A DNA stretch of 43,556 nucleotides from a virus. Where the stretch lies: the IMG/VR virus record IMGVR_UViG_3300023174_000290, positions 1 to 43,556 of that record; one strand, written 5' to 3'. Under the pieces are notes generated by a model. It worked only from the letters and a program-made list of their open reading frames with translations, did no database searches and was not told the origin of the DNA. This document shows, in pieces, positions 19,658 to 41,305 of this stretch (positions within the stretch are counted from its first letter, which is position 1; each line of letters starts with the position of its first letter). A program made the position numbers and the translations under genes.

Positions 19658-21424
19658 CTATCCTTCTAAGTCTTCGACTACTACGAGGCCGTACATGTCT
19701 GGGCGAACCATAGCCTTACCATAACGGGTCAAAACAGCCTTACGTGGTGCGAAGGTGTTTGGATCGAAGATGGTTGGTGTGGATTGTAGTGGTACGTATG
19801 GTGCATATACGTAACCGCTTTCAAGGAAGCTGCCACCCTTACGACCTACGAGAATTACGTTACGGAGGAAGTATGGGTGAACGATAACGTCCCACTTCTT
19901 GTTCATATCGCCAACCTTAACTGCGCCTACTGCGCCCTTCTCTGCATCGTTTGTTACAGATGCGCGGAAGCCGCTGGTGAATTCAAGAATATTAGCTACT
20001 TCTGGGGAGCAAACTAGGAAGTTTGCACCACCGCGAAGTGTCTTACGGTGAATTGCTGCGGATACATCGTTGATTGTTTCAACGAGTGTTTCATACCACA
20101 TGCTTACGTTACCAGTGAAGTCTGGTGGAGCAGTGTAGTTACCGGCACCGATATCTTCGCCAGTTGCACGGTTTACGAACTTACCGGGACGACGGCTCCA
20201 GTACTTGGTACCTGCTGTTGCACCCTTAACAAGATCGTTCAAGATTTCTTGGTCGATTTCAAGACCGATTTGTTCAGAAAGGATGCTGGTTAATTCTACT
20301 TCTGCATCCAAGTTGTGATAAGCGTTCAAGTCTTGGCCTAATTCTGGGGTCCAAGCTGCCTTGAGCTTACGGGTACGGGCAGTGATAGAGAAGCTGTCAA
20401 CCTTTAATTCTACTTCTGGGATTGAGCCGCTGTTTTCAAATGTCCATGGTTGTGCGCCTACGATTGCACCAAGGGCAGAATCACCAACAGTTTGAAGATT
20501 GTCCTTGATTGGGTAAGACATTAATACGTGTGAACCGGTTACGATTGCTGCTAATGCTGGTGAAGCAGATGGGGAACCTACAACGAATTGTAGATACTTA
20601 GTGCCGCTTACATCAACGATTTGTGTTAAACGACGAACAACGCCTACGCTGTTTTCTAATGCAGAACCAGTTGCATCACCTGCTGCTGCACCACCGTCTG
20701 CTGCTGCTTGTGCTACGGACAATGCAAATACATCTTGGTTTGCCAAGAGGCTGCTTTGTGAAAGAGCACTTAATGCAACGCGGAATACAGATACCTTAGT
20801 GTATGGATTAGCAGAAAGTAAATCTGGATCCCAACGGAGCAAGGTCTTTTGTGCATCGGTTAATGCACTTACTGCTACGTTTTCAATTACGTATGGGGTT
20901 ACGCTTGCAGTTGGTACGAATGTGTGATAACGTGAGGTGTTATAGCCGTTTGCTAAGTTATAGAAACCCTTTTCTGTGTATGCGCCATCCAAACGAACGC
21001 CACCAGTGATTTGTACGCCCAAACGATCACCGAAGAAGGAAGATTGTGAGGAGAATACCTTGTCACCTGTGTTACCTACGTCTGTACCACGCTTGAAATC
21101 CATGAAGAATACAAGACCGGATGGTAAGCTCATTGGTTGTACGCTAACGAGATCGTTTGCGATCAAGCCAGCGAATACGCGGCGTACTATTGGGAAAGCT
21201 ACAGCTGCGAAACCTTGAACATCACCTCCTGCCATTGTGGTTGCTTCGCGGAGAAGTTCTTTTGCTTGGTTTTCTAACAAGATTGCCATTGTTGCTTGAT
21301 CGCGGCCTTCTTTTAGACCTTCCAAAAGACCGGACTTTTGCCACTTACCTACGATTGATTGTGTTTCTACTAACATGTTGCGTTCTACGACGCCTTCTGT
21401 TAGACGTTCTAATACGTTACTCAT
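19658..21424 (-). CDS. 23: Major capsid protein, T4 gp23-like
   Basis: 588 residues. After an N-terminal helical propeptide, the mature part reads AAVAFPIVRRVFAGLIANDLVSVQPM and SGLVFFMDF, aligned with the gp23 'MVRRAIPNLIAFDICGVQPM..P.G.VF' core. A candidate prohead-protease site LLRE|ATTMAGG falls after residue 60, near the T4 cleavage point after residue 65, and fits the L/I-X-E rule for gp21 enzymes. The C-terminal half carries the HK97-fold regions (KAAWTPELGQDLNAYHNLD, then DLVKGATAGTKYWSRRPGKF). It forms the hexamers of the head. No separate gp24-like vertex protein is in the window. The AAGGAGATATAAA leader is the strongest long-gene ribosome site seen, and a terminator follows. Confidence 0.95.
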   Translation of the reverse strand: MSNVLERLTEGVVERNMLVETQSIVGKWQKSGLLEGLKEGRDQATMAILLENQAKELLREATTMAGGDVQGFAAVAFPIVRRVFAGLIANDLVSVQPMSLPSGLVFFMDFKRGTDVGNTGDKVFSSQSSFFGDRLGVQITGGVRLDGAYTEKGFYNLANGYNTSRYHTFVPTASVTPYVIENVAVSALTDAQKTLLRWDPDLLSANPYTKVSVFRVALSALSQSSLLANQDVFALSVAQAAADGGAAAGDATGSALENSVGVVRRLTQIVDVSGTKYLQFVVGSPSASPALAAIVTGSHVLMSYPIKDNLQTVGDSALGAIVGAQPWTFENSGSIPEVELKVDSFSITARTRKLKAAWTPELGQDLNAYHNLDAEVELTSILSEQIGLEIDQEILNDLVKGATAGTKYWSRRPGKFVNRATGEDIGAGNYTAPPDFTGNVSMWYETLVETINDVSAAIHRKTLRGGANFLVCSPEVANILEFTSGFRASVTNDAEKGAVGAVKVGDMNKKWDVIVHPYFLRNVILVGRKGGSFLESGYVYAPYVPLQSTPTIFDPNTFAPRKAVLTRYGKAMVRPDMYGLVVVEDLEG

Positions 21425-21444: not shown

Positions 21445-22779
21445 TTATTTAGTGTGTTTGATACCCGCTAGGGCTTTCATTCGTTCTGCCATAACATCAT
21501 TAATGCTATTTGCAGATGACTTCTTTACTACAAATGGCGATTGTGCTCTATTAATGGCTTCGTGGAGAGATTGAGGAACGGTTTTTTCCTTCTTTGTGCT
21601 CTCTACCGCATTTTGAAGTGTTTCATAGATTGTTTTCGCCGCTAATACACTATCTGCTTTGGAAATGGATTCAACAATTTGTGATTTTTGTCGCTCATTC
21701 AAGGAGATATTTCCTAATGCTTTGTTAGTGTATAACAATTTGGCATTTGAAACGTTAATTTTTTCTAATTGCTCTTTTAACATTTCAAGAGTTTCAACTA
21801 ATTTACTGCTTGTTGCCTTTAATTCTGCATTTTCTTTAACGAGATCGCCCATTTTCTTCATTTCTTCTTCACGTTGCGCTACTGCTTTATCATCACGGGC
21901 TGCTGCCAATTCTGCTTCTCGTTGTAATTTGGTTTCTGTTGCTGTGGAACCCATGTAACCACGTCCCATGCTTCCAACTTTAATATCAACCGCTAGACGT
22001 TCAGCTAATTCCATCAATTCTTCTTCAGTTATTGCAATTTCTTCTGCAACCGCAACTGATTTTTCAGCTTCAGCTTCGGCTTTAGCTTCTTGGTCTTGAG
22101 CAGCTTGTAATTTTTGTTGTGCTACTGCTTCTTCTTTGCCCATTTTAGCTTTAACGCCAGTTAAATTAGCAGTAGCGGCTTGAACGGCAGCGCCTTCTCC
22201 TAAATCTACTTCTTCTAAAGCTTCAACAGCTTCTACGGCACCACCAGAAGAAGTATCTTCTTCCATTTCATCCCAACCTTCTAATTCTAATTCGAATTCT
22301 TCTTCTAATTCATTCTTAGATTTATTAGGAGCGCCGGGAGCAACTGCATCCATGCCAGTTGTTTCGTGAGCACTTGTCATATCTACTTCTTCTAAGCTTT
22401 CAGTATGGCCCAACATTTCCATCATTGTGCTTTTGATTTGATCAAAATTAATTGTGATCATTTCATTTTCATCACCATCTAAGAATGAAGAAGGAACACT
22501 GTCAAATGCACTACCGCCATCTTGTTGTGGCTCGGCACTTAAATCAGCTTGTGGTTCTGTCGTTGCAGACGCATCTGGCACTGGACTTGCTGCCATTGCG
22601 GCAGGAGCGGCTGCTGTTGCGTCGGCAACTGATGCAGCTTGTTCTTGTTCTAATAATCTTTGAACAGTGTCTTTGAACTCTTGAGAATATTTCTCAATAA
22701 GTGTGTTTTCTGCGTTTTTGATTGCTGCTTCTTTCAAAGCGGTGGCATCAATGATAGCTTGTTGCAATAATTCTGACAT
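21445..22779 (-). CDS. 22: Prohead core scaffolding protein, gp22-like
   Basis: 444 residues, extremely acidic and alanine/glutamate-rich, with long predicted coiled coils (about 1-48 and 225-360). It begins SELLQQAIIDATALKEAAIK, then has low-complexity Ala/Pro/Gln and Glu/Gly stretches, several L-E-E segments usable by a gp21-type protease (SLEEVDM, ALEEVDL), and a basic C-terminus (RMKALAGIKHTK) like scaffold tails that contact the capsid. It lies immediately upstream of the major capsid gene, as in T4. It is longer than T4 gp22 (269). Expected to assemble the prohead core and then be degraded. GGAG ribosome site present. Confidence 0.85.
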   Translation of the reverse strand: MSELLQQAIIDATALKEAAIKNAENTLIEKYSQEFKDTVQRLLEQEQAASVADATAAAPAAMAASPVPDASATTEPQADLSAEPQQDGGSAFDSVPSSFLDGDENEMITINFDQIKSTMMEMLGHTESLEEVDMTSAHETTGMDAVAPGAPNKSKNELEEEFELELEGWDEMEEDTSSGGAVEAVEALEEVDLGEGAAVQAATANLTGVKAKMGKEEAVAQQKLQAAQDQEAKAEAEAEKSVAVAEEIAITEEELMELAERLAVDIKVGSMGRGYMGSTATETKLQREAELAAARDDKAVAQREEEMKKMGDLVKENAELKATSSKLVETLEMLKEQLEKINVSNAKLLYTNKALGNISLNERQKSQIVESISKADSVLAAKTIYETLQNAVESTKKEKTVPQSLHEAINRAQSPFVVKKSSANSINDVMAERMKALAGIKHTK

Positions 22780-22805
22780 TAAATAATCTCCTGTAAGCAG
22801 GAAAA

Positions 22806-22838
22806 AGCCTAATACTTTTACTTAATTAGTATTAGGCT
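22806..22838 (-). terminator. Intrinsic terminator after the bS21-like gene
   Basis: Perfect 11-bp stem (22806-22816 with 22828-22838), 11-base loop, followed in the minus direction by TTTTTCCTGC. It lies 15 bases past the bS21-like stop and 27 bases before the scaffold ATG, separating the two. Confidence 0.8.
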
Positions 22839-22852
22839 ACCCGAAATGACAA

Positions 22853-23158
22853 TTAATGTGCTGATTCTGAGCGTTTAGCTACTTTTTTCTTCTTCTTTTT
22901 TGGAGTTTGTTCAGGATCTTTTAATAAAGCAGCATTGGCCAATCTTGCATTACGCTTATATTTTAATTGACGTTGACGTTCCAATACGCTTGGCTTATCA
23001 AAACGTCGATTGTATGCTGAATAATCATAAAGATACTGTGTTAGGGATTCCTTGCTGCATGCTTTTAAGAATCTGTTTATGATTAATTCATTATTTTCTA
23101 ATGATGGTTGCATTCCCTTTGGGAGTTTTGTTTCTAAATTTACAGGACGCTTACTCAT
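22853..23158 (-). CDS. rpsU: bS21-like ribosomal protein
   Basis: 101 residues, very basic. The core from about residue 21 to 75 follows bacterial ribosomal protein bS21: E-N-N-E then INRFLKACSKESLTQYL (27-43), then AYNRRFDKPSVLERQRQ (48-64) and KYKRNARLANA. This matches E. coli features N-E...RRFKRSC.K and FYEKPT..RKR.K, including the cysteine after RF, with about four extra residues between RF and KP. The C-terminus is a lysine-rich tail (KKKKKKVAKR). In bacteria bS21 sits by the anti-Shine-Dalgarno end of 16S rRNA and helps initiation, and large phages are known to carry versions. It starts 3 bases after its upstream neighbour and is cut off by a terminator before the scaffold gene. Alternative: a basic DNA- or core-binding head protein. 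Confidence 0.7.
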   Translation of the reverse strand: MSKRPVNLETKLPKGMQPSLENNELIINRFLKACSKESLTQYLYDYSAYNRRFDKPSVLERQRQLKYKRNARLANAALLKDPEQTPKKKKKKVAKRSESAH

Positions 23159-23161
23159 TTG

Positions 23162-23530
23162 TTACTCTTTTACTTTCTTGCCATTCATGGCATTTAATGT
23201 TTGTTTCCAAACTTGTTTGTTTTCTAATAATTTGCTAATATCTACGCCGGTATCTCCGGTCATAATTTCTTTATCTTCTTTTAATGGTTGAGTACCAGCA
23301 AAAGCATCGAATCCAGTGCTTCCAATCGCATCTAACATTTTCTTTTTTGCTTCCATCAACGAAGCTGGTTTATCTTGTTGAAGCATTTGATTTTTAATTT
23401 GCTGAACTGGTTGTGGGGTCACACGGACAGTTTCAGAAATTAATTTTGTAAAACCTTCTTCTACAAGAACTTCCATAAGGCATTCTTTGATTAATGGTTT
23501 AATTAAAGCTTTTAAATCTTGTTTTTTCAT
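23162..23530 (-). CDS. Small head-module protein with capsid-targeting-like N-terminus
   Basis: 122 residues from the ATG at 23530, which has GAGGA five bases upstream; a TTG at 23542 is in frame but lies before that site. It starts MKKQDLKALIKPLIKECLME, an amphipathic helix followed by VLVEEG, which contains L-M-E and L-V-E steps. T4 internal head proteins start with a short capsid-targeting peptide that is removed at an L/I-X-E site, so this could be an internal or core protein, though that is inference. The rest is helical and polar, ending in a basic WKQTLNAMNGKKVKE. Not recognised by family. It sits just before the bS21-like and scaffold genes. Confidence 0.6.
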   Translation of the reverse strand: MKKQDLKALIKPLIKECLMEVLVEEGFTKLISETVRVTPQPVQQIKNQMLQQDKPASLMEAKKKMLDAIGSTGFDAFAGTQPLKEDKEIMTGDTGVDISKLLENKQVWKQTLNAMNGKKVKE

Positions 23531-23602
23531 ATATCCTCGCAATAAATAGTATTTTATTATGAAGTTTCTTTAATGTTTAATGAATTTATAAATTTTAATA
23601 TT

Positions 23603-24607
23603 TTATGAGCTTGTATAATAATCAATGCTGAAATATATAGTTGCATTATTCGTTAAATCTGTTACGCTCATACTTAAAGCCGATCCAGATGATTGCTTGT
23701 GCAATCGTATACTTGTTCCTTGTGGATAACCAAACGGCAAAGTTATCACACTTGAAGTATTAAAACCTGAATAGTAGCCTATATTGAGACTATTATAATT
23801 AGATGTTATAGCAAACGGCAAACCACCAATATTTACTGAATTAGCAGTAACGCTGCCCGTAGAAGATATTCCAACTGCTCCATTAAGAAAAACTCTACGT
23901 CCTATTTTAAAATATTCAGCAGCTGCTAAGGAATATGTATATGTGCCGGGAAGAAGAGTTGGCGACCAAGTTCCTTCTTCGTAATCATCTAATGTATTTA
24001 CATCCGATGAAGCAATTTGCGTTGCAGGAAATTTAATATTATTAAATACATTTAAACTTCCACTCGTTGTTAAAGTATTTTGCGAAATAATACCGCTTGT
24101 TGCTATTAAACTACCACTAATTATTTGATTAGCGGTGAATATATTAGTGGCAGATAATCTTGGATAAGAAGAAGAAACACCAATAAGAGTGGCATATGTA
24201 GAACTTGCATTTGTTATTGTTAAATAATTACTTAAAGCGCCAGTAATTTGCGCTTTAGTGGCAAAAGACGATGAAACATCTGAGGATTTGGCATATGCTA
24301 GCAATGCTCCGCTTACTTGTTGTTCGGTTAAACTACTAGAAGTAGTAATTTCTATTCCATTAACAATTAAATTACCAGAAACATATAAACCACTAGAAGC
24401 AGTTAATTTGCTATTGACTAAAGTATTATCTACTACACTAGAGCCTAATATAACGTTATTTTTAAAATCAGCATTTGCCCAGACAGTAAGATTATCTACT
24501 GCTACATCATTATTTTCTGTGTTAACGCTACCTAATTTGATAGTATCGCTACCAGTTGATGACACGTCTAATCCACTTGATGCTGATATGGGTGTTAAAA
24601 TTTTCAT
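23603..24607 (-). CDS. Short fibre-like protein
   Basis: 334 residues, rich in Ser, Thr, Asn, Leu and Val, with collagen-free beta-solenoid-like phrasing: TSSSLTEQQVSGALLAYA and similar 'ITGALSNYLTI' elements (about 93-135), then SGSLIATSGIISQNTLTTSG, and a distinct C-terminal domain with EEGTWSPTLLPGTYTYS (about 209-225). The 'DYEEGTWTP' start of a C-terminal beta domain is common in phage tail fibre and tailspike tips. Likely a virion fibre protein. No clear ribosome binding site; it lies 37 bases behind the long fibre gene, so it may be translated by re-initiation or from its own weak site. Confidence 0.7.
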   Translation of the reverse strand: MKILTPISASSGLDVSSTGSDTIKLGSVNTENNDVAVDNLTVWANADFKNNVILGSSVVDNTLVNSKLTASSGLYVSGNLIVNGIEITTSSSLTEQQVSGALLAYAKSSDVSSSFATKAQITGALSNYLTITNASSTYATLIGVSSSYPRLSATNIFTANQIISGSLIATSGIISQNTLTTSGSLNVFNNIKFPATQIASSDVNTLDDYEEGTWSPTLLPGTYTYSLAAAEYFKIGRRVFLNGAVGISSTGSVTANSVNIGGLPFAITSNYNSLNIGYYSGFNTSSVITLPFGYPQGTSIRLHKQSSGSALSMSVTDLTNNATIYFSIDYYTSS

Positions 24608-24644
24608 AAATTATATTGCATAATAAAATTTTATATTTTTATTA

Positions 24645-27488
24645 TTAGCCATAAATAGCGCCATCTATTACGTTATTGTTATATCCATCTACTCTAGATG
24701 CGCGAACCCAACAACCGGGATAAATATATATTTTTGGAGAATTGGTAGCTGATAAATTAGTATATATATTCAAATATACATCGCCAGCTAATTTATTGGC
24801 TGTTATATATCCTTTAATATCAATAATAAATAATCTTGTTATATTTGATCCTAAAGCTACGTTAAGACTAGAAGTAACAGAAACACCTGTATTTAAAGAA
24901 GTAATAGTTTGCTGTACTGTACTAGGATATAAATATATTAAACCACTCGCATAACCATCGAAAGGAGAAAAACTACCACTAATAGAACCGTTAGAGCCAC
25001 TTAATTCTGCTATAAAAGAAGCAGTTACAGTATTACCTTCAAGACTGGAAGATAAAGAAAATGGTATATAATAATCAAAATTAATTATACTGTTACTAGA
25101 AGATAGTGAATCAGTGAAAGTCTGTGAACCTAGATTAGTAGTTAATATTTTAATATTTGTATTTTTTAATGAAGAGCTAAAGAAATTTCTGTTAGGAGAA
25201 CTAAAAGAATATTTATCTATCATAAAACTGCCATGCGATACGGCAGTATTAAGCTTGGTTCCATCTTGGAATAGAACATTATCACCTTTTGACGATTCCC
25301 CAAACGCCACACCATCTTGTGTTGCTATGTTAGTAATGATTAATGGTTTAGTACCATTATTATTAGCATCCGTCGATAGTGTTAATTGACCAGTTCCACC
25401 ATCGTTACCATCAGCATAAATACTTGCTGAGTTATTATTGGATGTTATGGCTATAGCGGCATGGCCAGAGGAATTTATTTCTAGTTTTTCATTCGGATTT
25501 TCTGTTCCGATACCAACATTAGAAGAAGATATATATACACGCTCACCTCCAGCATTAGAAAATAACGCTATACCTTTTCCAGAAGGAGCATATATTCCAT
25601 ACCAATCTGTTTTACCAGTGCCAGCACTTGGACCAAATTCTGTTTGATAATTAGAGGAAGAATGATATAATCTTGTGCCTCTAATAGTTTGTTGGCCATT
25701 TACATCCAATGTAGTAGAAGGAGAAATAGTACCAATGCCAATTCTATTTCCAATATATAAATTATTAGTTCCACTAATGTTAGAACCAGTAACTTGTGTA
25801 CCACTAATAAACGATGCTGTTATTTGGCTAGCACTTAGTGAAGTTAATATTTTAGCATTAGTTCCTGATAATTGTGAACCACTAACAAAAGTTCCAGAAA
25901 CAGTTGTAAATTGAGCAGTAGAAGAACCAGTAATGCCACCAGATGCTGTAATAACGCTGTTAAATGTTTTGATTCCGGCAAATGTTTGAGCGCCAGTATT
26001 AACAACACCCACTAAAGTATTGCTTGCTTCTTGAATGCCAACTGTTGTTCCAGATTTAGTTAGAGGTGTAGCAACTGTAACTGCACCACCAACGCTTGAT
26101 GTAAACGCTGTTCCGTCTAAACTAATAACGTTATTAGAATATTGAACAGGGCTTGTTGCACTTAAACCAATGTAATTTGATGACGAAATAGAAGATGCGG
26201 TAATTTGGCTTGCGCTTAAAGATGTTAATATTTTACCATTTGAAGCAGATAAAGTAGTAAATTGAACGGTAGCACCTGTTACGTTTGTACCGGTTAATGT
26301 TGTAAATAATCCTAACGCACCAGATATACCAGTTGTTCCAGTTACGGCAGTTGTAGATACGCTAGAGCTTAATGATATTACACCACCTGCACTAATGCCA
26401 ATATTACTACCTGCTGTAAATTGCGCTCTTACATCACTTGCAAAATTAGGAAAGTTAGCCGATGAACCAGTTAAACCAATATAATTTGATGATGAGATAG
26501 AAGAAGCAGTAATTTGACTTGCACTTAGTGAAGTTAATACTTTTTCATTTGAAGCCGTTAAAATGGTAAAAGTTCCCAAAGAACTAGAGATACCAGTAGT
26601 TCCTGTAATTGCAGTAGAGGAAAGGTTTGTCAATCCTGTAAGGCTTGGTACTGTTGTTCCAAGAACTACTGCTGTAGAACCTATAGTTGAACCAGAATTA
26701 GCTAAGGAAGAATTAGGTACATTTGTTACAGATATTTGACCAAGTAATATGCTAATACCGGTTCCTTCTGTAAATTGACTACGTACATCTTCTTGGAAAT
26801 GATAAATATGTGAAGCGGTTATATCGTCTATTAAAGCACCAGAACCACTAAATGCACCGCTAACTGTTGTTGCGCTAATATTTGTAGAGTTTAAAGTATT
26901 TATTGTTGCAGAACCAAATTGTCCGCTTGTTCCACTAATGGAACCGGTTACTGTATTTGAATAAATATTTGAACCAGTTAAGGTAATAAACTGTCCAGAA
27001 GCACCGCTAACTGAACCGGTTAAAGTACTTGATGAAATATGTGAAGCTGTTAAGTTGGTAAATTGTGCAGAAGTACCACTAACGGAACCTGTTAGAGTAG
27101 TTGTATTTATATCGGTAGCAAATATATTAGTTCCGGTTACTGCATTTGAACTAATATTTGTTAATCCAGTTATGCTAGTTAATCCACTTGTTATATTTCC
27201 AGTAAGATTTAATACAGGGTCTGTTGAAGTACCAGAAGCAGAAAGATTTGTTCCTGCGGTTACAGATGTTACAGTACCCCCACCAACAGTTATTGAACCA
27301 CTTGCACCAAGAGCAATAGTAGTGCCATTGATGTTTATTGAGCTATTAGCTAATGCACTGTTCGGAACGTTAGAGGCAGAAACAACAATTTTATTTGGTG
27401 AACCAACTGCTAATGCAACACCAATACCATTACTTCCCGATAATGTGGCGCATGTTAAATTATCTGCACAATCTGTAAAAGTACTCAT
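24645..27488 (-). CDS. Long repeat-rich tail fibre protein
   Basis: 947 residues of Ser/Thr/Gly-rich beta repeats. Three classes of internal repeat are visible: TLTGSVSG-type (about 131-190), F..DVR.QFT.G modules (about 231 and 349), and ILTSLSASQITAS modules (about 317, 419, 547). Residues 581-600 (NRIGIGTISPSTTLDVNG) and a later VGIGTENPNEKLEI match the 'GIGT..P...L.v' element seen in T4 gp37-type long fibres. The C-terminal 200 residues are a separate non-repeat domain that could hold the receptor-binding tip or an adhesin trimerisation unit. AGGA lies before the ATG. Repeats make length variation by recombination likely. Exact fibre type (tail or head fibre) is unknown. Confidence 0.8.
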   Translation of the reverse strand: MSTFTDCADNLTCATLSGSNGIGVALAVGSPNKIVVSASNVPNSALANSSININGTTIALGASGSITVGGGTVTSVTAGTNLSASGTSTDPVLNLTGNITSGLTSITGLTNISSNAVTGTNIFATDINTTTLTGSVSGTSAQFTNLTASHISSSTLTGSVSGASGQFITLTGSNIYSNTVTGSISGTSGQFGSATINTLNSTNISATTVSGAFSGSGALIDDITASHIYHFQEDVRSQFTEGTGISILLGQISVTNVPNSSLANSGSTIGSTAVVLGTTVPSLTGLTNLSSTAITGTTGISSSLGTFTILTASNEKVLTSLSASQITASSISSSNYIGLTGSSANFPNFASDVRAQFTAGSNIGISAGGVISLSSSVSTTAVTGTTGISGALGLFTTLTGTNVTGATVQFTTLSASNGKILTSLSASQITASSISSSNYIGLSATSPVQYSNNVISLDGTAFTSSVGGAVTVATPLTKSGTTVGIQEASNTLVGVVNTGAQTFAGIKTFNSVITASGGITGSSTAQFTTVSGTFVSGSQLSGTNAKILTSLSASQITASFISGTQVTGSNISGTNNLYIGNRIGIGTISPSTTLDVNGQQTIRGTRLYHSSSNYQTEFGPSAGTGKTDWYGIYAPSGKGIALFSNAGGERVYISSSNVGIGTENPNEKLEINSSGHAAIAITSNNNSASIYADGNDGGTGQLTLSTDANNNGTKPLIITNIATQDGVAFGESSKGDNVLFQDGTKLNTAVSHGSFMIDKYSFSSPNRNFFSSSLKNTNIKILTTNLGSQTFTDSLSSSNSIINFDYYIPFSLSSSLEGNTVTASFIAELSGSNGSISGSFSPFDGYASGLIYLYPSTVQQTITSLNTGVSVTSSLNVALGSNITRLFIIDIKGYITANKLAGDVYLNIYTNLSATNSPKIYIYPGCWVRASRVDGYNNNVIDGAIYG
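25800..26555 (-). repeat. Three direct repeats inside the long fibre gene
   Basis: The segment coding A-S-N/T-x-K-I/V-LTSLSASQITAS occurs near 26510-26555, 26200-26245 and 25815-25860; the first two continue into SISSSNYIGL, while the third diverges into FISGTQ. Nucleotide similarity is high but with synonymous changes, so the copies are not recent duplicates. Confidence 0.75.
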
Positions 27489-27504
27489 TTATTTTTCCTA
27501 AATA

Positions 27505-29334
27505 TTAAACGCTTGTAGAAGTATTAAAGAACATTTCTATCCAACGAGTTCCATCATATATTAATTGTAAAGAACCGCCAGAACTAATCTTTCTTGTATT
27601 TGAACCAAGTGCTAAATTTGGTCCTTTGTTAAATGTTACAGAACCAGCTTGACCAATTGGTACTTGGATAAACAATATTTGTCCTAATGTGGCACCAACA
27701 TAATTGATATTACCTGCATTATAATTACCTGATGATAGTAACCTCCAATAAGCTGATGTTGGAAGAACTGTTTGACCATTTGCGCTTATTGTTTGTGGCG
27801 AATCAGAAGTTAAAGTTAATGATCCAACTGCGACTGTAGCCGCAACAGGAGCGGGGAACCAATCAGTACCGCCCCATTTTAAATATTCACCGGGATTCGG
27901 TGGAGTAACCACTGGACTTCTTACGGGATTTGTGTATAATCCTTTAACTGTAGCAACGCCGGTTGAATTTATTGTAACATCTTGTGATAATGTACGAGAA
28001 GCAAAATTAGTTCCATCAGAAACCAATATATTTGCCGATGCGCCAGAGCTAGATAATCCAGTTCCTCCATTCGCTATGGGTAAAACACCAGAAAATGCTA
28101 TTGTTCCAGTAGTAAAATTAATATTTTGTCCGGCTCTTAATTGCGCTCTGACATCATTTGTAAAATTAGATATGCCAGATGCAGTTAAGTTATAAAGTCC
28201 TACACCAGAACCAGTATGTGAGCCAGTAATTTGTGAGGCTGAGACGGCACACGTTACTTTTAACGAGCCGGTAATTAAAGCACTTCCGCTAATATCTAAT
28301 TTGGATTTTGGTTCGTTTCCTAATCCTAAATTACCACTATTGTCAACAATTAATTCTTGTGTAGAATCAAGCTTATTTTGTAAATATAATGGATATCTTT
28401 TAACACCAACTTCCAAAGGAGAAAGCAATATGCCATAATTATTTAATATGTTATTTCTTCTATTTTCATTACCGGGATCATAAAACGAATCGGCAATTCT
28501 CAATAATGATGAAGAATTAATAATTCCTATATTTTCACTATAATTATTAGCAATAGTTGTACTTTCTATTATATTTATGTTGTTTTTATTTTTTATATTA
28601 TTTGATAAATATAATATATTTGCATAATCTAAAACAGAAGAATTTTCTAAAGTTAAACCGAAAGCTCCACCAAAGAAATATGGCAAAGTCAAAGAACCGG
28701 TTGCTTTAGCAAATGTAAACCAACCATCCGGATTTTTAGTATAAGCGGAAAAAGGATAAGAAAAATTATTTATATAATATTGAAAATCTGGATCATCTGT
28801 GTTTTCATCAACTATCACTAATTGTGATGCACTAATGCTAGTTCCACTTATTCTTGTTGATTCTAAATTTAAAACTCCTGTAACGCTTGAACTTAATGAT
28901 AGGGTTTTTATATTACTATCAATTGATTGAGTTAGATTTGCACCGGGAATTATTTTTGATATTACATTAGCACTGAAATTGGTAATATTTGATGTAGATA
29001 TGTTATATATCTTACAACCATCTCCATAAAAAGAAGAAGTTATTTTTGAAGAAGAAAGATTTGTTTTTACAGAAACATTTGAAGCGGTTACAACACCAGA
29101 AGCAGATATGTTATTTGTATGCACATCTAATACGGTTATTAAATCGTTTAAATATAATGGAGAAAGCGTTTGACCATTGCCACTAAAATTAGAACCGCTA
29201 GTGGAAACAGCTATTAAACCTATGCCGCTTGGCGAACCGCCAACTTCAGCAATGACTTGAACAACATCGTTAAAGAAATTTCTTATATTTGAAGCGGTTA
29301 ATACTGATGTAGAGAAACCGTTATTAAATGGCAT
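27505..29334 (-). CDS. Tail fibre/adhesin protein
   Basis: 609 residues. It opens SVLTASNIRNFFNDVVQVIA, and later repeats the 'I..F..DVR.Q...G.nI' module (ISNFTNDVRAQLRAGQNI, about 381-398), which it shares with the 947-residue fibre. A middle part (about 175-320) is non-repetitive and rich in aromatic residues and Asn, possibly a carbohydrate-binding head. SKLDISGSALITGSLKV resembles the 'L.I.GS' fibre shaft element. The C-terminus is a separate small beta domain (GSLTLTSDSPQTISANGQ to the end). GGAT ribosome site. Probably a structural fibre next to the long one; host-receptor role inferred from the domain style. Confidence 0.72.
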   Translation of the reverse strand: MPFNNGFSTSVLTASNIRNFFNDVVQVIAEVGGSPSGIGLIAVSTSGSNFSGNGQTLSPLYLNDLITVLDVHTNNISASGVVTASNVSVKTNLSSSKITSSFYGDGCKIYNISTSNITNFSANVISKIIPGANLTQSIDSNIKTLSLSSSVTGVLNLESTRISGTSISASQLVIVDENTDDPDFQYYINNFSYPFSAYTKNPDGWFTFAKATGSLTLPYFFGGAFGLTLENSSVLDYANILYLSNNIKNKNNINIIESTTIANNYSENIGIINSSSLLRIADSFYDPGNENRRNNILNNYGILLSPLEVGVKRYPLYLQNKLDSTQELIVDNSGNLGLGNEPKSKLDISGSALITGSLKVTCAVSASQITGSHTGSGVGLYNLTASGISNFTNDVRAQLRAGQNINFTTGTIAFSGVLPIANGGTGLSSSGASANILVSDGTNFASRTLSQDVTINSTGVATVKGLYTNPVRSPVVTPPNPGEYLKWGGTDWFPAPVAATVAVGSLTLTSDSPQTISANGQTVLPTSAYWRLLSSGNYNAGNINYVGATLGQILFIQVPIGQAGSVTFNKGPNLALGSNTRKISSGGSLQLIYDGTRWIEMFFNTSTSV

Positions 29335-30157: not shown

Positions 30158-30769
30158 TTATCCTTTTACAATATCATTTAACAATCTGTTTAAACGATCT
30201 ACTTTTGTCCAAATAACTTTTGGATCAAGAGTGCGTTTTTTGCCTTCGCTCATCATGAATGCGCCGGGAGTGCTTGGTTCTTGAACGAAATCAAAACAAA
30301 TAAGTTGGAAATCGTCTTCTACTATTGTTTTTCCAGATTCTTTGCGCGTGCTACCCAAGCCTCGACTAGAAATTCCCAATCTAACTCCGCTTTCTACTAG
30401 AGAACGAAGAATTTTTCCTGATGGAGTATCTAGAACTTTAACTTTTCCCATTACTGCATCATTGTCCCACCAAATGCCTGTAACCATATGGGAAACATTT
30501 TTGAGATTAACTACTGAATCTTCTGGGTGGTCTAATTCGCCCAAAGCTCTACGGTCTTCAACAAGCTTTTTATAATTTTCTATTTCGCGTTCTAAAACTT
30601 TTTTACCATAAATGCGGCCATTGCCATTTTCTTTATCAGCACGCTGCATTACGCCAGTGAGCATCAAGCCGCCATTTTTAACGTGAAGTTTTTCTGCTTC
30701 TGTCAATAAATCTTGACAAACGCCACCTTCACATAATTCATACCATTCTCTAAGTAATTGTTTTGACAT
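30158..30769 (-). CDS. 21: Prohead maturation protease, T4 gp21-like
   Basis: 203 residues with the fold-specific motifs of the gp21 family: NGNGRIYGKKVLEREI (about 48-63), GELDHPE with candidate catalytic H81, and GVRLGISSRG with candidate nucleophile S134 or S135. The enzyme works inside the prohead, cutting core and capsid proteins after L/I-X-E. Its own N-terminus contains LLTE|AEK at 21-25, a possible self-cleavage point. No Shine-Dalgarno sequence is visible before the ATG, and a terminator-like hairpin lies just upstream, so expression may be held low or tied to the peptide ORF in front of it. Located between capsid-surface and portal genes as in T4 (20-21-22-23 order, here interrupted). 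Confidence 0.9.
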   Translation of the reverse strand: MSKQLLREWYELCEGGVCQDLLTEAEKLHVKNGGLMLTGVMQRADKENGNGRIYGKKVLEREIENYKKLVEDRRALGELDHPEDSVVNLKNVSHMVTGIWWDNDAVMGKVKVLDTPSGKILRSLVESGVRLGISSRGLGSTRKESGKTIVEDDFQLICFDFVQEPSTPGAFMMSEGKKRTLDPKVIWTKVDRLNRLLNDIVKG

Positions 30770-31746: not shown

Positions 31747-32553
31747 CTAATTCTCCACCTCATAAACAAATTGTTGTATTTTTAGTACATTTTCCAACAT
31801 CGCCGGGGATATTTCTTTATTTGATTTAAATTCTTCTAATAAAGCTAAAACTTTTTTAGTTTTTTGTTCCATGTAATTATCATTTTTGATTTCTTCACAT
31901 GTTAAAGCAGTATTTACTTTTTCGTTTAATCTATTTAATTCTTCGTTTAGATAAATTTTTAATTCTAATCCTTCATCAGCAAATGAACTAACATATTTTG
32001 TTAATAAATCTTTTTGCTCACTTAATAAATTAGAATATTTATCATTAAATTTCTTAGCAAATGTCTTGAAAACAATATTATCTATTGGTTTTAATTCTTT
32101 ATTTTCATTTAAACAATTAAATGTACTTAAAATTGATTGTTCAAGAAGAATTTTTTCTTGTATTGGTGTTGAATCATTAAAAATTTGAAAAATTGTAGCT
32201 AAATTTTTATAGTTTGGAACAAAATTATTATAGATGTGGGCACCAACGGATTTATTGATTCTGTTAATTAGATATGTTTGTTCATTAAACAATAAACGCT
32301 TATCTAATTTAGCGTGTCTATCTTTAACTTCTTGAAGATATCTCTCGGAAATATTTTTATCTATTGAAGGATTATCTAAAGCTTTATAAAGGGCTAATTC
32401 TTTTCCGAGTTCAGTCTCTGGATGAAATGCTCTAACGATAAATGTTTTTATGGTTTTTAATTTATCAAGATCTTTTTCTAAAGTTGCTTTTGTGCCTTCA
32501 CGTAAAAGAGATTCGTAAAGAAAAGCGGTATTTCTTTTCTTATTATGTTTCAT
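31747..32553 (-). CDS. Helical protein between portal and protease genes
   Basis: 268 residues, almost entirely predicted helical and Lys/Glu/Asn/Leu-rich. It starts MKHNKKRNTAFLYESLLREG, where LLRE again fits an L-X-E protease step, and ends KIQQFVYEVEN. Members in this position are common in T4-related marine phages and have no assigned function; a core or portal-assembly protein (comparable in position to T4 gp67/gp68) is a guess. It overlaps the portal gene by 11 bases, so the two are translationally coupled. Confidence 0.6.
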   Translation of the reverse strand: MKHNKKRNTAFLYESLLREGTKATLEKDLDKLKTIKTFIVRAFHPETELGKELALYKALDNPSIDKNISERYLQEVKDRHAKLDKRLLFNEQTYLINRINKSVGAHIYNNFVPNYKNLATIFQIFNDSTPIQEKILLEQSILSTFNCLNENKELKPIDNIVFKTFAKKFNDKYSNLLSEQKDLLTKYVSSFADEGLELKIYLNEELNRLNEKVNTALTCEEIKNDNYMEQKTKKVLALLEEFKSNKEISPAMLENVLKIQQFVYEVEN

Positions 32554-34519
32554 TTTTTTTGTTCTCCGTTGATACTTCTTCTTTAAGTAGTGTTTTAGAA
32601 AGTGATTTGAGTTTGTTTTCTACTTCTAACAACAACTTTTCATCATTTTCATAAACATCTTCTGTCTGTTCATTGAAAATACCTTTTGAAGCTTGAGTTA
32701 ATGTGCTTAAACCAGCAAACATGCTTCTATTGGTTTTTCCTGTAGTTGATTCTGGGGTATGTGTTCTTTTAAAATGCTTGGTTCTTGGACCACGACTAAT
32801 TCTTCCATCGGTAGCAGCTGGCTTATAGAATGTACCATTAGCTTTAGGAGTGGAATACGAACCGTCTTTTTTATACATTGTTTCTGAATTATCGGATCTT
32901 CTTGGTGGGGCTGCTAATAAGTTTGATTCTTCGCCACCAGCTTCTTCAGTTCCAGTCGTCTCTGCTCCCGCTGTCTCTGCTTCTCCCTCACCACCAGTTG
33001 CTTCGGGCGTTTCTCCACTTAAGCCGCCCAATGCACTTCCACCGCCAGAAGCCGTATCTCCGCTTTCTTCGCCAGCTTCAATAGCTTTTTCATATTGCTT
33101 ATCATAGAAAATATCTCTTTGAATACGCAAGAAGTCGCTATCTCCCATCTTGAATACGTTTTCAAAAATCCAACGCTTACTAAAACCAGCTTCTTTTGCT
33201 TCTTTGGCAACATCAATTTGTGCCTTGAAGTGTTCTAATTCTTGTAATTCGCTAATTTTAGAGGGATTATTTAACTTAAGTTTAAATTTAAGTAAATCTT
33301 CATTTCTATAACCAAGAGTATACAAATGAATGATTCCAATTTTTTCTAATTCAGACAATACAACTCTCTGTAGTCTCTGAACTGTTCTAGCAAAGCGAAT
33401 ATCTTTTTGTGCAAGTGTGCTTTTATCTTCTGCTGCTTTGTCCTTGCCGCTTGTAAGATAAGATTGTGGAAGCTTTAAGGCAGAAAATAGCTTATCACGC
33501 AAATATTGAACGTCATCAATATCACCAGTGAATGTGCCACCTTGCAAATTCTCTATTTTTGTTCCGCTTTGTGTGCCACGAACAGGAATATAAAAATCTT
33601 CATCAATACTCATTGGATTATAACGTAAATCAACACGACCTGTGTTTGGATCTACAATCATATTACGCTTTAAACCTGTGATAACCTTTTGAATATATTG
33701 TTCTACTTCTTGTGGAGCTACGTTACCAACGTCAATATAGAATACTCTGCGTTCTGGTGCGCGGACGATACGATAAGCCATCATTGCATCTTCCATCAAT
33801 TGCAATTGACGCCAAATACGACGAGCCGGTTCTAGAACTGAGGTGCCGTATGGTGTATATTTATCTTGTCCAAGAATTCTAAAGTGTGCGATTTGCCAAT
33901 TTTCAAATGTAACACCCGCGCTATTCCATTGATATTGAACGTAATTTGGATTACTTTCATCTTCACCTTCTAAACGTTCAATTTCTGGCGATGGTAATCC
34001 TAGACAGGTTTTAACTCCCAACTTTTCATCAATATCTAAATATAAAAAGAAATCGCCAAATTTGCACATGGTTCTGCACCATGAAAACAAATTAGATTCA
34101 ATATTTAAAACATTAAAATAAAGATTTTGTAAGATACCTTTTATTTCTTCATTTTTTGTATCAACAAATAATAAACTACGGAATTGATTGCTGGTTGTCA
34201 TTTCATCAGCGTAAATGTCCATTGCTGATGCAATTTCTGGCATGAATTCCATTTGATCGAAGTCGCTGTACCGTTCGGCACGACTTTGATTGGCCATAAT
34301 GTTGCTTTGAATGGCTTCAAATGGGTTATAGCTCTTCTTCTTAAAGCTCTGGCCACTAGCACTAGTAAACTTATAGCGATCTAAATCACGGCGTTTATAA
34401 CGTATTTGAGATTGTGCTCTAAAATTGCTTATTGGTCCTGAAAATAATCTTGTTAGCCCTGTGTATAGCGGGGATTCTCTATTCTTAGGATTATTATCTT
34501 TTATTCTGTTATTAGCCAT
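32543..34519 (-). CDS. 20: Portal vertex protein, T4 gp20-like
   Basis: 658 residues. The portal core runs to about residue 475 and includes FDQMEFMPEIASAMDIYADE (about 85-104), a FENWQIAHFRILG region, RIVRAPERRVFYIDVGN and KDKAAEDKSTLAQKDIRFARTV-like helices that in gp20 form the DNA channel. The C-terminal 180 residues are a Gly/Glu/Ala low-complexity stretch followed by a basic part and a coiled coil, absent from T4 gp20 (524 residues). The dodecameric portal nucleates head assembly and anchors TerL. AAGG precedes the ATG; the gene starts 7 bases after TerL. Confidence 0.93.
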   Translation of the reverse strand: MANNRIKDNNPKNRESPLYTGLTRLFSGPISNFRAQSQIRYKRRDLDRYKFTSASGQSFKKKSYNPFEAIQSNIMANQSRAERYSDFDQMEFMPEIASAMDIYADEMTTSNQFRSLLFVDTKNEEIKGILQNLYFNVLNIESNLFSWCRTMCKFGDFFLYLDIDEKLGVKTCLGLPSPEIERLEGEDESNPNYVQYQWNSAGVTFENWQIAHFRILGQDKYTPYGTSVLEPARRIWRQLQLMEDAMMAYRIVRAPERRVFYIDVGNVAPQEVEQYIQKVITGLKRNMIVDPNTGRVDLRYNPMSIDEDFYIPVRGTQSGTKIENLQGGTFTGDIDDVQYLRDKLFSALKLPQSYLTSGKDKAAEDKSTLAQKDIRFARTVQRLQRVVLSELEKIGIIHLYTLGYRNEDLLKFKLKLNNPSKISELQELEHFKAQIDVAKEAKEAGFSKRWIFENVFKMGDSDFLRIQRDIFYDKQYEKAIEAGEESGDTASGGGSALGGLSGETPEATGGEGEAETAGAETTGTEEAGGEESNLLAAPPRRSDNSETMYKKDGSYSTPKANGTFYKPAATDGRISRGPRTKHFKRTHTPESTTGKTNRSMFAGLSTLTQASKGIFNEQTEDVYENDEKLLLEVENKLKSLSKTLLKEEVSTENKKNET

Positions 34520-38179: not shown

Positions 38180-41100
38180 CTATTGATATATATATGCGTA
38201 TCCATCTTTGCGGTCTATAACTATTTGACTATCTACGCAATCCTTTAGACTATCTAGGTGTGATATTAGTATCACAGTTTTGAAGTAGCTTTTAATTAGT
38301 TCTAAGATTCTTACAAAACCTTCTAGATTTTCTGCGTCTAATGCTGTTCCCGGTTCATCCATGATGAAGAAATCTGGTCGTGGCAATGTTGTAACGCTGA
38401 TTAAAGCTAGTCTAATAGCAGTTGATGCAAGAGTTTTTTCTGCACCGCTTCCCATTTCTAATGGACGAGCATCATATTTTGGATGTTTAATCATAATATC
38501 CAACTTATCATCATCATTCTCCAAATAAATAGAGAAATCTACGATATTAGACAATATTTTAGCTATTTCTTGATTAATCTCTGGTAGTTTACTCTTTATG
38601 ATTTCATATGAAAGTCCATTAGGATGCATACAAGCTTGAAAAAGATCATAAGCTGCATAATCTCTACGAATTTTTTCTAATTCTTCTTTTTGTTTAACAG
38701 AAATTTCATATTTTTGAGTAATGGAACCATGATTCTTATATAGCTCAAGCAAATCCCTCTCAGCTACTCTTAATTCATCATTAAGATTAGATAAAATCTT
38801 GTTTTTATTAGCTTTTTTACCTAATAAATCTTGATAATTTTGAATTTTTTGTTTATTTTCTTCATATTTACGTAATTTTTCTTCTAAAGTTTGGATAGAA
38901 GAATCAATAATATGTAATGCACTATTGTTTTTTTCTATATTTAATTCATTAGCAGCTATATCCTGCTTTAGATTGGTTACTTTAGCTGTAAAAGTATTCA
39001 AACGTTTACTAGAAGCAGTAACTTCTTCTTCTAAAGAAGATTTTTCTGTTGCTTTATCAGTTAATATTCTTTGAGCTTCTGTTAATTGCTCAACAATATT
39101 TTCATAATTTTCTTTTGCTGTAAAAGCATCTTTAATAAATTTGCAGTTTGGAAATGAATCTCCGCAAGGAATTTCATTCAATAGCTTTATTTTTTTATTT
39201 CTATTAGAAACATCATTATTTAATGAATCATATTTCTTTTCAAAAGAATTTATTTGATTATTTAATGAATCTAATTCTTCTTTTTTCTTAGACAATTCTT
39301 CAATATCTATTAAAGACAATAGTTTAGACAATTCATCTAATAGTGATGTCTTCTTAACATTATCTTCTAGCATATTTTTATTAGAAAGGATTAATTGTTC
39401 CTTTCTAGAAATATGCTTATTTAAATTTTCTTTTGTATTATCATAATCAATAATATCTGTTGGCATATTATTGATAGATAGCTGTAACTCAGCCATGCTT
39501 TGGTTGAGAGCAGAGATTTTTTCTTTTAGATCATCAACTACAATTTTTTTCTGTTCTAATTCAATTTCAATTTTTTCTATTTCTTCTTGGGCATTAGAAA
39601 TATCTTTTTCGTAATTAACACCTTCTAGCTTCTTAAGAATAGCCTTTAATTCAGAGCTTTCTTCTTTTGCTAATTTAAATTTCTTTTCAAATGTCTCTAG
39701 GTCAAGGAACTTAGCAAGAATCTGCTTACGATTCGTAGATCCTTCTGTAATGAAAGATAGATAGCCAAATTGACTGGCCATTGAAGTTAAAAAGAAATCA
39801 TCTACTGTACCAAAGAAACGACGGATGTTCTTGTCAGTATCATTACGTGCAAGACCATTTAGGGATTCTGAATCTGTTGTAAACTGAACGTCAGTTTTAC
39901 CTTCTATAACTTCTACGCCTTTTGATTTCTTAAGGTACTTTTCTGTCTTTCGATCAATTACGTATTCTTCGCCATTGATATCAATAATGGCTTTACCAAA
40001 ACCTCCTTCTGCATTTTGATTAATTACGTTCAAGTTCTTTCTATTATTTTTTGATGTTGTATTATAAACAGTATAAAGCAAGCTATCGACAACGGATGAT
40101 TTACCGGTATAATTTTTTCCAAAAATACCGACGATACCATTCATGGAAGCAAAATCTATTTTATTTCCTTCTCCATAATTGAAAAGATTATCCCATTCAA
40201 GAGATTTTAGCTTCCAGTTAATATTTCTATACGTCTCTTCACCCTCTTCAATTGCAGAAGAGAATTTTTTATTTAATTCAATAACTTTAACAATAATTTC
40301 TTCATCAGCCTTATAGTCTTTAAGATATTCACGAATAAGCTTTTCTTGAAAGCCAAGATCTCGTAAATTATCTTCATGTGTTATAGCAGAAGCGGTTTGA
40401 CTATTTTTATTTACATTCGCTTTATTAACGAATGTAACACTTTCTGGCTGAAATTTGTTTTTTACTATTTCCGTAGCCTTCTTGACTTTATCCAATGAAA
40501 CGCTTTTGTCGGCAATAATACGCACGCGAGCAGAAATAACAATATCGCACTCTGGAACATTTCCTTCATCGTCAAGAACAATATTAATATACGGCTTAGG
40601 ATTTTTGATTGCATGATGTTCGCAAGTAAAATCATTTTTTCCTTTTATATCCCAAATTAAAAAACCCTTATCGTCCGTTTCAGCAAAACCTTGCTGAACG
40701 GTTGAACCGGGATAACGAACTTTTCCTTCTTTATCTACAGCTTGATTAGTTTTATGAATATCGCCAAGAAATACATAATCATGTCCTTCATATACATCGA
40801 CAAGATGTACGTCGGATTCTAATTGATATCCTGTATCAGTCGTGATGCCAGAAATAGCTCCATGATAAAGACCTATGTTAATTTTTTCGGCGTTACTTGG
40901 CTTAACCCATTTGTCCTCATCAATAATGCTCAAAACATTTAAACTAAATTGATCATTAATTGAGATTTCGCCGGAATATTTGTGTAAAAAAAGATTAGAA
41001 AGATTAAGAGCTTTGATAATTGGAGAAATAGAATCTTGTCGTGAATCATTCTTTAGATTCACATCGTGGTTGCCAAGAATTACGTGGGTGGGAGCTATAG

Positions 41101-41305
41101 AAGCAAGATTCTTGAAGAACTCACTTGCCATATCAACAAACTCTGGGCTGATTTGTGTTTTTGTATGTGCAATATCGCCGCAATGAATAATTAATTCTAC
41201 CCTTTGTTCACGGGCAATACGATAAATTTCATTAAAAATCTGAGTATATTCATCGTGATGCTTTAAGTTTTTTACATGCGTGTCAGCCAAATGCAATATT
41301 TTCAT
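38180..41305 (-). CDS. Fused SbcD-SbcC (Mre11-Rad50) nuclease-ATPase
   Basis: 1041 residues in one frame. Residues 1-about 345 are a metallophosphoesterase of the SbcD/gp47 type (LADTH 6-10, CGDIAH 42-47, GNHD 78-81, YHG 147-149, GDIH 181-184). Residues about 366-1041 are an SbcC/gp46-type SMC-like ATPase: Walker A-like GKNYTGKS (396-403), about 400 residues of coiled coil, signature SGAEK (about 953-957), Walker B FFIMDEP (about 979-985), and H-loop LISHLD. The coil apex has C714 and C721 (CGDSFPNC, CX6C) instead of the usual CXXC zinc hook. In T4 gp46 and gp47 are separate proteins that process DNA ends for recombination-dependent replication. A GGAG site precedes the ATG, and a terminator lies just upstream. 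Confidence 0.92.
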   Translation of the reverse strand: MKILHLADTHVKNLKHHDEYTQIFNEIYRIAREQRVELIIHCGDIAHTKTQISPEFVDMASEFFKNLASIAPTHVILGNHDVNLKNDSRQDSISPIIKALNLSNLFLHKYSGEISINDQFSLNVLSIIDEDKWVKPSNAEKINIGLYHGAISGITTDTGYQLESDVHLVDVYEGHDYVFLGDIHKTNQAVDKEGKVRYPGSTVQQGFAETDDKGFLIWDIKGKNDFTCEHHAIKNPKPYINIVLDDEGNVPECDIVISARVRIIADKSVSLDKVKKATEIVKNKFQPESVTFVNKANVNKNSQTASAITHEDNLRDLGFQEKLIREYLKDYKADEEIIVKVIELNKKFSSAIEEGEETYRNINWKLKSLEWDNLFNYGEGNKIDFASMNGIVGIFGKNYTGKSSVVDSLLYTVYNTTSKNNRKNLNVINQNAEGGFGKAIIDINGEEYVIDRKTEKYLKKSKGVEVIEGKTDVQFTTDSESLNGLARNDTDKNIRRFFGTVDDFFLTSMASQFGYLSFITEGSTNRKQILAKFLDLETFEKKFKLAKEESSELKAILKKLEGVNYEKDISNAQEEIEKIEIELEQKKIVVDDLKEKISALNQSMAELQLSINNMPTDIIDYDNTKENLNKHISRKEQLILSNKNMLEDNVKKTSLLDELSKLLSLIDIEELSKKKEELDSLNNQINSFEKKYDSLNNDVSNRNKKIKLLNEIPCGDSFPNCKFIKDAFTAKENYENIVEQLTEAQRILTDKATEKSSLEEEVTASSKRLNTFTAKVTNLKQDIAANELNIEKNNSALHIIDSSIQTLEEKLRKYEENKQKIQNYQDLLGKKANKNKILSNLNDELRVAERDLLELYKNHGSITQKYEISVKQKEELEKIRRDYAAYDLFQACMHPNGLSYEIIKSKLPEINQEIAKILSNIVDFSIYLENDDDKLDIMIKHPKYDARPLEMGSGAEKTLASTAIRLALISVTTLPRPDFFIMDEPGTALDAENLEGFVRILELIKSYFKTVILISHLDSLKDCVDSQIVIDRKDGYAYIYQ

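Follow-up and report, generated by a model that had tools for sequence, protein, structure and literature searches.

The window analysed here, a 43,556-nucleotide stretch of viral DNA, carries a T4-like head module on its minus strand. Profile searches identify the genes for the portal protein (T4 gp20-like, 32543..34519; PF07230, E=2.3e-77), the prohead core protease (T4 gp21-like, 30158..30769; PF03420, E=3.6e-30) and the major capsid protein (T4 gp23-like, 19658..21424; phrog_138, E=1.2e-69). The gene directly upstream of the capsid gene (21445..22779, minus strand) matched no profile family, and its position and coiled-coil-like composition point to a gp22-like scaffold protein. Among the protease, scaffold and capsid genes lies a small minus-strand open reading frame, 22853..23158, running from ATG to TAA, whose 101-residue product (calculated pI 10.2) we assign through profiles and intermediates to a divergent part of the bS21 ribosomal protein family. 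It starts, at operon-like spacing, 3 bases past the stop of a co-directional ORF of 126 aa (23162..23542, minus strand) with the pattern MKKxxLKxxIKPLIKEC..., which is conserved beside this slot. Between this pair and the prohead protease gene are three large minus-strand genes (23603-29334; 334, 947 and 609 aa). The 609-aa product matches Phage_depo_C weakly, and the region resembles a cargo site, since relatives have different genes there. Elsewhere in the window a single 1041-aa ORF (38180-41305, minus strand) fuses Metallophos (SbcD/Mre11-like) and AAA_23 (SbcC/Rad50-like) domains, whose T4 counterparts are the separate genes gp47 and gp46.

The core of the protein reads NE...RFLKAC.K...RRFDKPSVLERQR, with a spacing from the cysteine to KP that exceeds that of bS21 by four residues, and a KKKKKK tail. 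An AlphaFold model built from 41 sequences (mean pLDDT 72.9, pTM 0.36), of moderate confidence, predicts helices at residues 20-33, 36-46, 48-52 and 56-79. An N-terminal extension of about 18 residues would thus be followed by helix 1 (20-33), a helix 2 holding the four-residue insertion (36-46 and 48-52), the KPS turn (55-57), the long basic helix 3 (56-79) and a lysine-rich tail (87-92). The order of the predicted helices agrees with helices 1-2-3 of bS21 as described (PMC9976891). Foldseek found no PDB match for the model and nothing significant among viral models, a search that was uncalibrated on a true bS21 model; bS21 itself lacks a compact fold. In these respects the first-pass annotation, made from the letters alone, was accurate: the limits and length of the ORF, the order of its motifs, the stretch from the cysteine to KPS with its four added residues, the lysine tail and the three-base gap behind a small head-region gene all stand.

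The same annotation placed a strong terminator between the bS21-like gene and the scaffold gene. There is indeed an 11-bp hairpin followed by a T-run (22806..22838, minus strand), and it may terminate some transcripts in the window phage. Its outer stem is not conserved in relatives. Alignment of 17 sequences instead reveals a conserved element with promoter-like spacing, made up of an upstream block, TTGTCATTT (22844..22852, minus strand), and a downstream half, ACTAwTTA..TAAAA (in full form ACTAwTTAAxTAAAA), represented in the window by ACTAATTAAGTAAAA (22816..22830, minus strand). Next comes a conserved hairpin, TTTCCTG-CTTA-CAGGAGA (22787..22804, minus strand), that includes the Shine-Dalgarno (SD) site of the scaffold gene. 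Its CCTG and CAGGAG columns are invariant, and since the pairs never vary among the 17 sequences they offer no covariation evidence. Because the putative terminator overlaps the conserved promoter-like motif, which is then followed by the conserved SD-covering hairpin, the terminator reading is probably wrong for the lineage. We also considered a general rule of SD-hiding hairpins in the window phage and rejected it, as real genes did not exceed shuffles and only the scaffold leader hairpin is conserved.

Searches that begin from the window protein alone do not recognise it as bS21. Pfam, NCBIfam and PHROGs gave no bS21 match, phmmer against the PDB and tblastn against 50,697 phage records gave no match, and PF01165, when run on the window record together with four relatives, likewise found nothing. 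The Pfam Ribosomal_S21 check that the first-pass annotation had itself proposed, the lack of a hit being named beforehand as grounds for refutation, yielded no direct match above the gathering score; taken at its word, that condition for refutation would apply. Twelve close homologues are present in IMG/VR. An hhalign comparison between this close family and a set of Bacteroidetes-type bS21s aligned no more than 14-17 columns, weakly (P=0.009 and 0.005), and we attribute the weakness of this profile-profile comparison to the uniformity of the close family. Against the PDB the close-family profile matched unrelated chains, and only a widened profile succeeded. Since no library recognises the protein directly, the link to bS21 requires intermediates.

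Such intermediates are provided by relatives of the phage. With the capsid gene as bait, 80 related loci were collected; these and two cultured phages supplied the 8,866 ORFs scanned. A gene occupies the corresponding slot in about 50 of the relatives reached in this way. The divergent type of slot gene is recognisable in 38 entries (37 loci and the window), with scores that slope smoothly from 191 to 55 bits, and below them the divergent profile next picks the very ORFs that an independent bS21 profile finds. Seven canonical slot ORFs were scanned against Pfam, and all seven scored above the PF01165 cut-off; on the divergent slot gene of two records PF01165 was the sole match, below its cut-off (E about 0.013-0.015). 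The canonical-bS21 profile, run on 8,867 ORFs, placed 15 canonical slot ORFs first and 26 divergent ones directly below, all ahead of the first unrelated ORF, the window protein (E=0.006) being one of these 26 insertion-bearing proteins. In the reciprocal direction, a profile built only from divergent sequences and run on 8,888 sequences filled its first ten places with bS21s, nine of them canonical ones from the slot and the other that of E. coli. The best bS21 reached 26.9 bits (E=1.8e-6), as against a best bS21 score of 14.1 bits over 100 column-shuffled profiles, and the reversed profile placed no bS21 within its top 20. At least one shuffled profile put equally many bS21s in the top 20, so that the score, and not the count, is the useful measure; and since these rankings are drawn from a collection enriched in relatives, they show kinship rather than genome-wide significance. 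Against 177,635 PDB sequences, six of the seven matches of the widened divergent-only profile were bS21 (E 0.033-0.74, each modest).

The reciprocal profiles with their controls, the canonical bS21s in the same slot and the conserved neighbour gene together give good support to descent, and homology to bS21 (PF01165) can be traced through profiles and intermediates. We therefore consider it very likely, as judged from sequence comparison, that the window protein descends from bS21, and would describe it as a remote, strongly altered and previously unannotated homologue of that protein. The identity proposed in the first-pass annotation thus survives as a statement of descent and fails as one of direct family recognition; the missed PF01165 threshold weakens the notion of a recognised member, not that of common origin.

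Of 36 divergent loci, 35 have the neighbour gene beside the slot, as do 11 of the 15 canonical ones. A tree of capsid proteins unites all 38 divergent entries in a single branch (aLRT 90), which also holds eight loci that end before the slot and no canonical locus. Only in this branch does helix 2 carry the four-residue insertion, and every readable slot there has it (38/38), a distribution that fits a single origin of the insertion and vertical inheritance. Selection on the divergent gene is purifying, with dN/dS of about 0.07-0.27 for pairs with measurable dS. Given this dN/dS, the 12 close homologues and the 38 insertion-bearing slot homologues found by synteny, the gene is far from a chance reading frame. 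A PF01165 search of large relatives carrying the divergent gene (fragments of up to 187 kb) found no second, canonical bS21. A 174-kb relative (G005) has 15 tRNA genes, of which 14 lie together in a cluster (L227 251-2814; the other at L225 19346-19416). In one divergent sub-branch (the slot genes of L161-L163, L166-L170 and L173) the KPS turn is replaced, for example by FETPRQKERRERR, which suggests further drift from bS21. The viral contigs L102-L120 carry a canonical bS21 that resembles that of Bacteroidota, in which KYKxKVIKTKQ often replaces the Flavobacterium helix 1.

By alignment (E. coli numbering), the divergent family largely retains the equivalents of R18, K25, K40, P41, T/S42 and R46; those of R18, K25 and R46, together with the F of RF, are near-invariant. 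Lost are the usually basic positions 22, 33 and 35, now mostly A/E/S, Y/F and N/K/Y, respectively; E. coli bS21 itself has Ser at 22. Helix 2 is remodelled, and a new N-terminal LPxxxxPS segment and a K-rich tail have been added. Since these usually basic positions are gone, ribosome binding may be changed or lost. The Bacteroidia-type aromatic at position 54, which stacks on A1534, is absent from the window protein: strict alignment places R69 there, with Tyr67 two residues off.

No other ribosomal protein is as common in phages as bS21, according to counts that depend on profile matches. The presence of bS21 genes in phage head modules is already published, and the window gene is a divergent variant of this known kind of gene. 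In jumbo phages of freshwater Bacteroidetes (Chen et al. 2022, PMC9723584) the bS21 gene likewise sits within a group of genes for portal, prohead protease and capsid, has a conserved neighbour gene and was proposed to act at a late stage; it lies on the strand opposite the head genes and keeps the aromatic at position 54, whereas the window gene is co-directional, sits 3 bp behind its neighbour, carries the four-residue insertion and escapes detection by Pfam. The cultured Microcystis phage Mel-JY01 (PP395634.1), whose capsid gene is only distantly related to that of the window phage, has an annotated RpsU between prohead protease and scaffold/capsid genes (PF01165, E=8e-12), but with canonical spacing and neither insertion nor lysine tail. 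Pelagibacter phage HTVC008M is another myovirus; its bS21 (Mizuno et al. 2019, PMC6375957) is 54% identical to that of its host, while for the window protein single-sequence searches detect no match. With bacterial bS21 (RpsU, PF01165) the window protein shares the order of helices 1-3, the RF...K motif, the KPS turn and the basic helix 3, and differs in its N-terminal extension, the four added residues of helix 2, the K-rich tail and the loss of usually basic residues at 22, 33 and 35. What is new is a divergent subfamily beyond the reach of the libraries, an insertion restricted to a single branch, and a graded link to canonical members; we found no description of this subfamily in the literature, our coverage of which is incomplete.

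How might such a protein serve the phage? The window phage and its relatives make use of SD sites: a 5-base SD precedes 24% of the genes in the window and 30% and 23% of those in two larger relatives (G002 and G005), where shuffled leaders gave 4-6% and internal ATGs 0-3%. Good sites are found at the capsid, sheath and scaffold genes and a weak one at the bS21-like gene. The simplest reading of this enrichment is an SD-using host; the cyanobacterial host marker psbA is absent. We favour, as somewhat the better bet, a scenario in which the gene is a bS21 orthologue acquired as an ordinary bS21, vertically kept, and now replacing the host protein to favour late phage mRNAs. An ancestor of this T4-like lineage would have taken up an ordinary bS21 and passed it down in the slot between prohead protease and scaffold, one branch then gaining the helix 2 insertion, the longer N-terminus and the lysine tail. 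Produced late, alongside the head proteins, the protein would occupy the exchangeable bS21 site on the platform of the host 30S subunit, beside the 16S 3' tail, where its altered helix 2, N-terminus and tail could shift start-site selection to the abundant SD-bearing late mRNAs (capsid, sheath, scaffold). Ribosome exchange late in infection is favoured because bS21 is exchangeable, because a phage bS21, that of HTVC008M, enters E. coli ribosomes (PMC6375957) and because phage bS21 is transcribed together with head genes (PMC9723584). The phage probably retunes host ribosomes through its divergent bS21 while particles are being built, and a bias toward phage mRNAs, which matches published proposals (PMC6375957, PMC9723584), is plausible. 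The only test so far published saw translation by E. coli ribosomes fall strongly with a viral bS21 (PMC6375957), which leaves the direction of the effect uncertain.

The main rival holds that this descendant of bS21 no longer works on the ribosome and has been exapted for head assembly, for instance as a small basic prohead-core protein or a DNA-binding internal protein that uses the lysine tail. The fixed place beside the scaffold gene in all 38 readable slots of the branch, the lost basic positions, the new N-terminal segment and tail, and the disappearance of the KPS turn itself from one sub-branch all speak for such a change. The near-invariance of the R18, K25 and R46 equivalents and of the F of RF speaks against it, as does the lack in the window protein of [LI]-x-E, the motif of the T4 prohead protease; and since sister phages carry canonical bS21s in the same slot with the same neighbour, the slot alone implies no structural role. 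We regard this alternative as rather unlikely. A second alternative supposes that the host is one of the Bacteroidota, with a bS21 that masks the anti-SD. The phage protein, lacking the stacking aromatic at position 54, would set the anti-SD free, so that SD-bearing phage mRNAs beat SD-less host mRNAs. R69 at that position and the SD sites of these phages would fit, as would the finding that Y54A or truncated bS21 raises translation of SD-strong mRNAs in F. johnsoniae (PMC9976891). However, the distant relative Flavobacterium phage immuto has an SD in 0 of 22 genes of the stretch examined, so that SD use more simply indicates a non-Bacteroidia host, and E. coli bS21 (13.5 bits) matches the divergent profile better than the Flavobacterium bS21s do; we find this version improbable. 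Finally, that an unrelated small basic helical head protein merely happens to have RF...K...KPS...R is already disfavoured and most improbable, for although every direct search (Pfam, NCBIfam, PHROGs, PDB) was empty and the profile-profile P only 0.005-0.009, the reciprocal profiles with shuffled and reversed controls, the graded intermediates and the positional homology with PF01165 members argue against chance.

The gene belongs to a divergent subfamily that all profile libraries miss and that is nevertheless present in every readable locus of its branch. With its graded intermediates it offers a natural series in which to ask what parts of bS21 determine the choice of mRNA. It is possible, if on balance doubtful, that this branch of large phages has remade bS21 into a dedicated specificity factor, remodelled by a longer helix 2, a new N-terminus and a lysine tail, or else has made a head protein of it; if true, a ribosomal protein would have taken on a new function as a core phage gene that defines its lineage. 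The window gene offers an example of how a borrowed host gene can turn into a core gene of the head operon.
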